The notes below the pieces were generated by a model. That model was not told the origin of the DNA. It searched no databases and worked only from the letters and a program-made list of their open reading frames with translations. This document shows positions 35,044-55,577 of a DNA stretch of 64,000 nucleotides, one piece after another. The stretch comes from Lepisosteus oculatus (taxonomy: Eukaryota; Chordata; Actinopteri; Semionotiformes; Lepisosteidae): the NCBI RefSeq assembly GCF_040954835.1, contig NC_090697.1, positions 8,320,501 to 8,384,500 on the forward strand, read 5' to 3'. Position numbers and translations under genes: made by a program. Numbering within the stretch: the first letter of the stretch is position 1; every line of letters starts with the position of its first letter.

Positions 35044-38000
35044 TCAGAAACACTTCCTGAAGACGACCTGGGGGCCGAACTCCTCGTACTCGGCCTGGGT
35101 GATCCACGCCGTGGAGAAGGAGGGGAGGCTGGCCAGGGCGGCGCCCCCGCGCCACACCGCGCAGTCCCTGTCCTCGGGGCTCACCACCCGCACGCTGTCC
35201 CACAGCTCCGCGGGCGCCATGGCGCCAATCTCCTCCCGCAGCCGCGGTGCCAGGCCGGCCAGGAGCGTGTTCCCGCCTTCAACCAGAGCACACACACACA
35301 CACGCGCACGGCTGTTAGTCACCTCGAGGCACCGCGCACGAGCGAGGGGAAAATAAAAAAAACTCAGCGGAAAGCACCAGTCATTACTGGACCCTACTGG
35401 AAAACACATTCAACTCATTTAGCTGTTTCTGGCCTTTTAAAAAAGTGTTTATTTTAAAAAAATCTGTTTTATGAGAAAGTGAGATGGAAAAAATGAAACT
35501 ATTTTTACAAGTTAACCCACTATTTTATTTTATTTTTATTGCAAATGATCCCCAAACACGCTGCAAGTGCCAGTGAGCCACTCTGCACTTTTGAATGACA
35601 TACCACTGAAGCACAGCTCTCACCTGGGTCACATGCATCAGCCTTCTGCGCCAGCAGGTACCCGGCTATATAATATATAAGCATCCATGACTCTGGCTCC
35701 ATAAGGAATTTGGGTTCATTTAATGACTAAAAGCACCTCTTGTAGGTGCACAATTTCTTTACTGCATCTACCTTACTTTTCACACAAAAGCTGTAGCACC
35801 CTGCAACTCCCAACTGCCAGCCCACTGAAGCTCAGCAGGTGTGAGCCTGGCCAGTACCCCGGACGGGAGACCTCCTGGAAAAACTAAGGCTGCTGCTGGA
35901 ATCTCATATACCCTTATAAGACCCGCTTTTAACATGCCAGCCTGCGTAGCGTTCAGGCGGGCTAAGCTATGTCGCTCAGCCATCTAATGTTGCACATGCC
36001 TGATGAAAGGCCGGAGCCCGTTGCAACAAAGAAAGCGAATTACCTGACAGAATAATATTTCCCACAAAGCTTTTCCGGAGGTCGATGTCGCAGCGCAGAA
36101 TGGAACGGAAGATGGCCTCGTGCATTCCATAGTGGTCTCTTCCAATCAGTCCTGGTCTGAAAAGAATTTCAGGGGCTCTGTTAAAAGAAAAAAAAACTAT
36201 TAGACCCGACAAAGTTCTGACCTGCAGCCACATAAGCAGCAATGTTTCAGCCTGATCTTTCAAACAGGTGGCAGCTCCAGGCTGGGAACCAGTCCAGGCT
36301 TTGTGGTTTGAGGCTTGCATCATGTTGTCAGAGGACTGTAGTCAGAATACAGCTGCACTTTTCTAAAGAAATTCCACGAGGTCCTCATTCCACCAGTGTT
36401 AATCAACACCTGAATTACAAGCAGATAAACTTGTCTGGATAGCCTTTTTTCCTTGAAAATTGCTTATAAGTCATATAACACTTCTGCTTATACTCATTCA
36501 ATAATAATAAAACTTAAACCCTACAAAGCTTTGACCTGCAGCTCCATAAGACTGGTTCAGTTTGATCTTGAAGTGGTTGCAAGCTGCTGGTTTTTGGATA
36601 TACTGTATGAATGTATATCCAATGTGTAGCCAGAAGAGATAAGGGAGACATCTGGGAGGTGAGAATATCATTTTTGTATTTTTGCAAACTATGCAGTCTA
36701 GTGGCTTGTAGTTGGCTTTGCACCCAAATATACAAAGATGCTGCCCGTCCTTGGTCAGTAGGATTAAAGGGCATCTATGAGGTACTGTAAGCTGGCTGTG
36801 TGCCCAGAACATATGAAAGGAACTAACTTTTGTCTAGTCTGCAACTTAGATATGATTAATAACAAGATTGGCATGTGTTGTCTGATCATTCGTTCAGAAT
36901 GTTGTAGTAACTTGTTTGTTTTTGCGGTATAAAAGACCATCTTTAGCTACTTATTTTTTAGTTCAGTGGCTCCAAGCCCTTCTTCCATATGCATATAAAA
37001 AGAGATACAGTACTCCTACTACACAGACACTTGGACTTTGTCATTCGGATGACAACACCAGTTTTCAACCAAGGTGGTGTCATTTTTAGGACCTTTCACA
37101 TGAAATGATTCATTATCTAAAGCTGCGGCTTGCTCCGAATGCACACTAACATCCCATGTCCTGACTATGGAATCTTTACTGTACACAGGCTCAAAACTGC
37201 AGAATTTCATCCCTCCAAGTTGAAACTGACTTGAGATGTACCCAGCCACCAGCCATTTAAGCTGTGCTTTCCCCCTCCCACAGCCTACGAGCAGGAAACC
37301 GTGCCACAGTGCCAAGGGTCTGAAGACAAGCCTATTATAAAGGGCTCAGGAGAGAGCCAGCGTGTTACCGGAGAGCACACTTACCTGAACCTCTCTGTGC
37401 CTAAACTGATGACCCGCCCGTCGGGCAGTGTGTACGACATGTCCACGCCGGCGGCCCTCCTCGCTCCGTTCAGCTCGGCCTCGTAGTCCCGAGCCACACA
37501 GCAGCACCTCTCCTTGATCTCCCGCACAATCTCGAGCTCCGCCGTGGTGCGGAAGGCGAACCCTCTCTCCTGCAGCAGCTGTAGGGGCACAAGACCGTAT
37601 CATTCCTTAGACCTGCGTAGCGCCTTTCTGGGCACTCCAATCAAAGGACTTGACGGGTAATGGGGATGCCCACCAATGTGTGCAGCCCCACCTGAATGAC
37701 ACACCAGCCCGCTCACCACACACCAGCTCTCAGTGCGGAGGAGAACAGAGTGATGAAGCCAGTTCAGAGATGGGGATTATTAGGAGGCCATGACTGGTAA
37801 ACTACAGCAGGAAATTTGGCCAGGACACCAGGGTTAACATTCCTATTCTTTTCAAGAAGCACCCTGGGATTTGTAATGACCACAGAGAGCCAAGGCCTTC
37901 ACTGTGAAGTTACAAAGGCATGAATCGGCAGGTGGTTTTGGGGAGTTAATAGCTTCTGCGGCCTTTTCCACATCGTTAGCTCAGCTGCGGCTTATACAGC

Positions 38001-55577: not shown

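Follow-up and report, generated by a model that had tools for sequence, protein, structure and literature searches.

Actin is nearly always a free subunit. In filactin of Dictyostelium discoideum, a conventional actin is described as extended by a long N-terminal part, the actin domain being highly homologous to conventional actin (PMC2441452). In primates, POTE-actin is reported as an in-frame fusion with an actin retrogene that was inserted in a primate ancestor, behind a membrane-associated front that has a spectrin-like domain as well as ankyrin repeats (PMC7073761). Fronts of another type are found in the Sec14-spectrin (SecSR) class, in which Kalirin, TRIO, MCF2, MCF2L, MCF2L2 and SESTD1 are placed and where the Sec14 domain is N-terminal and described as lacking CRAL_TRIO_N (PMC9823006). 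KIAA1755, on human chromosome 20, is described as having two zebrafish orthologues (PMC7367351).

The locus considered here lies in Lepisosteus oculatus, within a stretch of 64,000 nucleotides (hereafter the window; C2:8320501-8384500 of the 1.2 Gb genome in which all genomic searches were run), and a minus-strand gene in it probably encodes, as one gene, a single fused Sec14-to-actin protein. A first-pass annotation had proposed such a gene, and the reading frame and both end domains are present in the DNA, whereas the spectrin repeats that were to lie between them are not recovered by profile. Comparing this protein with the described systems reveals likenesses and differences. Filactin carries filamin repeats, whereas Pfam lists no filamin-type domain in the window's protein; in both, a whole actin domain ends a larger protein, although here it is only about 55% identical to conventional actin. 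Likewise, POTE-actin as described has its C-terminal actin in frame after a long front, but it stems from a retrogene, whereas the window's actin part has six introns, three of them placed as in muscle-type genes, and Pfam lists no ankyrin repeats in it. The SecSR proteins share the N-terminal Sec14 domain without CRAL_TRIO_N; furthermore, the closest genomic Sec14 matches of the window's protein lie upstream of RhoGEF exons, and SESTD1, according to the same account, is likewise without a RhoGEF domain. The window's protein differs from the class in that no RhoGEF domain is found in it, its C-terminal part is actin, and it has no spectrin profile match. No paper among 5.39 million open papers combines “CRAL-TRIO” with “actin domain”, and predicted database entries of such a protein may well exist. 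Given the precedents of filactin and POTE-actin, the claim that no known family has this order was overstated; an actin on a long N-terminal extension is known, and it is the Sec14-type partner and the intron-bearing actin that look new.

The modelled gene (55577-35044) has 22 exons that join in frame into 1,894 residues and a stop, with the start codon at 55577 and the stop at 35044 both present in the DNA (Table 1). Splicing in silico reproduces the proposed exon number, frame, start and stop, but not the 1910 codons first given. Because the exon edges were picked by eye, the agreement of phases and the splice-site scores are no independent proof of the model. Twenty of the 21 introns follow the GT-AG rule, the exception being intron 13 with its GC donor (GAG/GCTAGT, at 44040); an alternative GT 18 nt downstream, which would keep the frame, scores in the lowest 3% of the GTs of the locus. 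When sites were ranked by frequency tables against all GT and AG sites in the locus, all 21 donors reached at least the 91st percentile (the GC donor being scored on its other positions only), as did 18 of the 21 acceptors. The weaker acceptors are those of introns 12 (84th percentile), 13 (82nd) and 21 (78th), such that the junctions of exons 12-14, with the GC donor, are among the weakest in the model and the last acceptor is weaker still. A leave-one-out codon score is best in the modelled frame for 17 of the 21 exons of at least 90 nt and does not favour it for exons 2, 4, 15 and 17. Exon 1 coincides with a CpG peak (observed/expected 0.98 in 55501-56000, and 0.95 in 55751-56250) in a scan that covered windows between 53001 and 58250 and the introns 40700-40396 and 46068-44152.

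Table 1. Exons of the modelled gene and candidate 3′ signals, in window coordinates.
Feature	Position	Strand	Description
Exon 1	55559..55577	-	Begins with the start codon; encodes 6 residues plus one base of codon 7; surrounded and preceded by a CpG-rich, promoter-like stretch
Exon 2	54013-53890	-	CRAL-TRIO/Sec14 domain
Exon 3	53233-53131	-	CRAL-TRIO/Sec14 domain
Exon 4	52171-52049	-	CRAL-TRIO/Sec14 domain
Exon 5	51895-51779	-	CRAL-TRIO/Sec14 domain; exons 2-5 give residues about 8-160
Exons 6-8	50202-50042, 49662-49516, 49060-48958	-	Presumed helical region
Exons 9-11	48540-48415, 48234-48052, 47566-47331	-	Presumed helical region
Exon 12 (1098 nt)	46069..47166	-	First exon of the linker; reads into an in-frame stop (46056-46058) if unspliced
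Exon 13	44040..44151	-	Charged stretch running on into exon 14; GC donor
Exon 14	43345..43452	-	Continues the charged stretch of exon 13
Exon 15 (1791 nt)	40701..42491	-	Long linker of low complexity; reads into an in-frame stop (40686-40688) if unspliced
Exon 16	40273..40395	-	Actin residues 1-41; first codon GTT
Exon 17	39099..39227	-	Actin residues 42-84
Exon 18	38763..38958	-	Actin residues 85-149 and first base of codon 150
Exon 19	38536..38660	-	Actin residues 150-191; D157N
Exon 20	37385..37578	-	Actin residues 192-255 and two bases of codon 256
Exon 21	36044..36177	-	Actin residues 256-300 and first base of codon 301
Exon 22	35044..35276	-	Actin residues 301 to end (RKCF, stop)
Candidate AATAAA polyadenylation signals	34394..34729 (first bases 34729, 34532, 34399)	-	Pattern match only, 3′ of the stop

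The window also holds four stretches resembling 5S rRNA (Rfam RF00001, 45-60 bits), three within introns of the gene and one upstream of it: 45247-45365 (+), 58608-58726 (-), 52979-53097 (-) and 39655-39773 (-). They look like the heads of 5S-derived SINEs rather than 5S genes, and a TAA trinucleotide array of 21 perfect copies within intron 3 (52470-52533), some 450 nt from one of them, is perhaps the tail of that element.

It is worth considering whether the locus instead holds two genes, one with the Sec14 domain that stops in exon 15 and another, actin-like, of which the first exon has been missed. Exons 12 and 15 have in-frame stops a few codons past their donors, which allows for transcripts that stop short of the actin; in particular, the frame of exon 15 stays open for four codons beyond its donor, to the stop at 40686-40688, and exon 16 begins at or within two codons of the conventional start-codon position, as a separate actin gene with an upstream first exon might. 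However, there is no initiator methionine at the start of the actin exons. Exon 16 reads V-D-D-F-K where the cytoplasmic-type gene L014 reads M-E-D, with its methionine exactly at that V; the ATG of L011 and of the muscle-type genes lies one or two codons further out, and in exon 16 the preceding triplet is the TAG of the acceptor. Also, the donor of exon 15 (98th percentile) and the acceptor of exon 16 (94th) are strong and their phases fit. The first-pass annotation had pointed to two introns as places where a polyadenylation site would separate the genes. The 305-nt intron 40700-40396 contains neither AATAAA nor ATTAAA, one weaker variant (TATAAA, at 40682) and a low CpG ratio (observed/expected 0.37); intron 46068-44152 contains one ATTAAA (44950), no AATAAA and a CpG ratio of 0.28. 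We consider two genes unlikely on this evidence.

At the N-terminus, the first-pass annotation had placed the Sec14 and spectrin half of a Dbl-family protein, and of this the Sec14 part held while the spectrin-like helices gained no support from Pfam or the PDB. A divergent CRAL-TRIO/Sec14 domain is confirmed there as a weak match: CRAL_TRIO_2 scores 24.2 bits (E 4.7e-5) on residues 1-171 alone, just over the Pfam cut-off of 23, and 18.4 bits, under it, on the whole protein, and CRAL_TRIO matches the first 171 residues at E 5e-4. With the first 517 residues as query and a limit of E 1, the sole PDB sequence listed was the Sec14 domain of kalirin (E 0.17), whose alignment spans residues 6-160. 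Likewise, the first 520 residues align with fragments of TRIO and PLEKHG4 at 27.8 and 19.2 bits, above every shuffle that scored (best 3.1 bits among the 317 of 500 that returned a score for TRIO, and 5.3 among 351 of 500 for PLEKHG4). The PLEKHG4/puratrophin-1 and KIAA1755 families have a CRAL-TRIO-like front part. No CRAL_TRIO_N was listed by Pfam for the first 171 residues, in a search whose HMMER filters drop most matches above E about 0.1. Spectrin repeats have no Pfam match anywhere in the protein, and residues about 160-520 match no spectrin entry in Pfam or the PDB, the only spectrin-type signal being a 9.3-bit alignment to the repeat region of the TRIO fragment. As to the proposed lack of DH and PH domains, Pfam finds no DH (RhoGEF) domain in the protein, a genomic RhoGEF search (150 of 173 candidates scored) none in the window, and the whole-protein Pfam scan lists no PH domain. 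Between the presumed helical stretch and the actin there appear to be about 1,000 residues of mainly low-complexity linker; residues 521-845 and 926-1517 are linker-like in being poor in hydrophobic residues (22% and 20%), and in the genome search linker exons 12 and 13-15 match only themselves, with no relative elsewhere.

The Sec14 part has kin in the same genome. A search with the N-terminus gives 13 matches at E 0.01 or lower. Eleven fall in the window, and the remaining two are at C13:634858 (E 4e-5, with 38 residues aligned at 50% identity) and at C8:49624240 (E 0.005). RhoGEF exons follow both on the same strand, about 23 kb (C13:658210) and 10 kb (C8:49614402) downstream, so these relatives look like Dbl-type genes, presumably similar to MCF2/MCF2L; none of the 92 RhoGEF matches (150 of 173 candidates scored) falls in the window. 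Both relatives have a splice acceptor in phase 0 at residue 124, which is where exon 5 of the window's gene starts. This boundary is the only one taken from their spliced alignments, which are noisy (scores 165 and 174, against 100 and 113 for one shuffled query each); it was placed by the aligner at C8 and read by eye at C13, where the aligner itself put no intron at that point. Because none of the 87 matches in a genomic search for the actin family lies near either relative, the pairing of Sec14 and actin is seen only in the window.

The C-terminus is a complete actin, as had been proposed, of 377 residues in seven exons (Pfam PF00022, residues 1523-1894, E 2e-117, profile positions 5-410 of 410), and a PDB search with this part matched 161 entries, all named actin among the 60 listed. 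No close second copy is found: of 57 genomic matches, those outside the window are 32-61% identical. When 16 actin loci were fetched from the genome and actin was aligned across their introns, the window's actin was 48-56% identical to seven conventional genes (55-56% to five, 54% and 48% to the others), six of which are themselves 94-99% identical to human ACTA1, with L011 at 83%. In an unrooted tree it falls outside the conventional clade (support 85), and by identity and clade placement alike it does not appear to be a conventional actin. L011 (C9:41681000-41684300) is cytoplasmic-type with two extra intron calls, and is either an unusual actin or an alignment fault. Descent from ARPs or testis-type actin-like genes, also considered, is not supported: identity to 13 such proteins is 33-46%, and the tree offers no partner among them (neighbouring nodes have supports of 61 and 64). 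Five intronless actin-like genes, at 37-45%, are no closer. These five (L020-L024; C13:20664132, C1:33573137, C4:54181653, C1:60088299 and C28:4848536) read as a testis-type actin-like gene set outside mammals, L024 being joined to human ACTRT2 in the tree (support 96) and L020 to the two of them (94).

It is informative to compare the introns of the window's actin with those of the genome's own actin genes, which served as the reference. By position and phase they are (42,0), (85,0), (150,1), (192,0), (256,2) and (301,1). Muscle-type genes L009, L012 and L013 have (42,0), (85,0), (122,0), (150,1), (204,1), (268,1) and (329,0), L010 and L015 the same set without introns 85 and 122, and the cytoplasmic-type L014 has (42,0), (122,0), (268,1) and (329,0); L011, L017 and L018 were left out for odd or poor spliced alignments. 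Three of the six, (42,0), (85,0) and (150,1), are thus identical in position and phase to introns of L009, L012 and L013, for which a uniform model gives a chance of about 3e-6, a figure that overstates the case because introns favour certain sites. In the controls such agreement is seen for one intron of seven in ACTR2 (L016), which has a further intron at (192,0), and for one of nine in ACTR1 (L019, whose identity count is out of register but which the tree joins to ACTR1A with support 100). The match fits what an ascidian study describes, namely a first actin intron conserved, with exceptions, from vertebrates to echinoderms, and an ascidian cytoplasmic actin whose introns 150 and 204 are also those of vertebrate muscle actins (PMC2753633). 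Since no close copy is found, identity is 48-56% and half of the introns are common to muscle-type genes, the actin part is not a retrocopy; its ancestor was probably an animal actin gene with introns, from which it then diverged fast.

Fast divergence invites the suspicion that the locus is a degenerating fusion or an expressed pseudogene, in which an accidental join left an actin that does not function. The 48-56% identity to conventional genes, six of them at 94-99% to human ACTA1, would fit this, as would the changes D157N, G15S and K336D, the altered D-loop and the linker exons without a relative in the genome. We regard it as very improbable nonetheless, as all 1,894 codons are open, whereas introns have about 5% stops per codon, and introns lost and gained relative to the conventional genes suggest a long persistence during which a pseudogene would have decayed.

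Similar care is due to the genomic setting. Downstream, on the same strand as the fusion gene, lie exons with a FAP206 domain (25670-25918, 23642-23977 and 19946-20188), which we take to be CFAP206, and beyond them a nucleotide-sugar transporter, presumably SLC35A1, of which four exons lie between 15661 and 8412. Beyond the window on the other side is a connexin open frame (C2:8392155-8393033), and past this an uninterrupted reading frame of 2,767 codons that includes a C2H2 finger (C2:8399269-8407569, minus strand; L043-L044), which we assume to be ZNF292. The fusion gene hence sits between ZNF292/GJB7-like and CFAP206/SLC35A1-like neighbours, all four of which are neighbours at human 6q15 as well; no such fusion gene is known at 6q15, nor any member of this gene lineage in human. 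An artefact of the assembly or of the reading is extremely unlikely, as the window contains no N, lies inside a 78 Mb contig and has its neighbour genes in coherent order. Orthology with KIAA1755, our first guess from the CRAL-TRIO front and the zebrafish paper, was dropped as a working view because of these CFAP206-, SLC35A1-, connexin- and ZNF292-like neighbours, which belong to human 6q15 and not to chromosome 20. N-terminal fragments of KIAA1755/PLEKHG4B type matched the window at best at E 0.045, on the opposite strand and unconvincingly.

What the actin part might do can be considered from its residues, although their roles as nucleotide contacts and the sets that make up each face are our assumption. 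Residues D11, S14, K18, H73, Q137, D154, H161, R210, K213, E214 and C374 are kept, as is the C-terminal RKCF, and 17 of 23 nucleotide and cation positions are unchanged, the exceptions being G15S, D157N, T303N, M305L, Y306L and K336D. Against an overall identity to ACTA1 of 207/375, the D-loop has 3 of 13 residues identical (p 0.018, as one of several sets examined) and the plug 5 of 13, whereas the nucleotide set (19/28), the barbed face (29/45) and the pointed face (18/36) are not significantly depleted. The changes G15S, D157N and K336D together with the D-loop mean that ATPase activity or polymerisation may be altered or lost. The idea of a pointed-end cap, with the pointed face more diverged than the barbed, was rejected, since neither face differs significantly from overall identity, and for the same reason no polarity is claimed.

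On these features we tentatively suggest, as quite possible, that the protein is an actin-like subunit which binds ATP, is tethered to the membrane and joins, seeds or caps filaments of the cell cortex; sequence is the basis for the tether and the nucleotide pocket, and what happens at filaments and membranes is what we infer from them. Through its Sec14 domain the protein would reside at a lipid membrane or in a signalling complex, the linker would give the actin domain reach, and that domain would bind ATP and join, seed or cap filaments in the cortex. It is also possible, if with less conviction on our part, that the same single protein, from the same gene model, uses its actin fold as a regulatory or scaffolding module, as ARPs do in chromatin complexes, and never meets filaments; this competes on function only. 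The divergent D-loop and plug and an ARP-like distance (55% identity to ACTA1, where ARP1 has 53%) speak for a scaffold, whereas the retained RKCF and the three residue sets that show no significant depletion speak against it.

As to origin, the upstream gene may have been a Sec14-bearing relative of Dbl/Trio. Splicing of its transcript would then have extended into an actin gene with introns, entering at the exon where actin coding began. The junction would have been an acceptor just before the old ATG, with actin taking the place of the RhoGEF half; at least four of the seven conventional actin genes (L010, L011, L014 and L015; by eye) have a candidate acceptor that precedes the ATG by 1-16 nt. 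The fusion would then touch actin directly, whereas its GEF relatives work via Rho GTPases. We hesitate to go further, and it remains rather doubtful whether the whole can be read as a vertebrate lineage, not known in human, in which a Dbl/Trio front gained an intron-bearing actin in exchange for its RhoGEF and a membrane-anchored subunit seeds or caps filaments, by-passing Rho. If true, an intron-bearing actin fusion of some age would exist in a vertebrate, unlike the retrogene case of the primates, and it would show a signalling protein swapping its indirect handle on actin, the RhoGEF, for actin itself. Actin covalently tied to a lipid-binding protein would then be a case in which nature itself has tried out the placing of filament ends at membranes.
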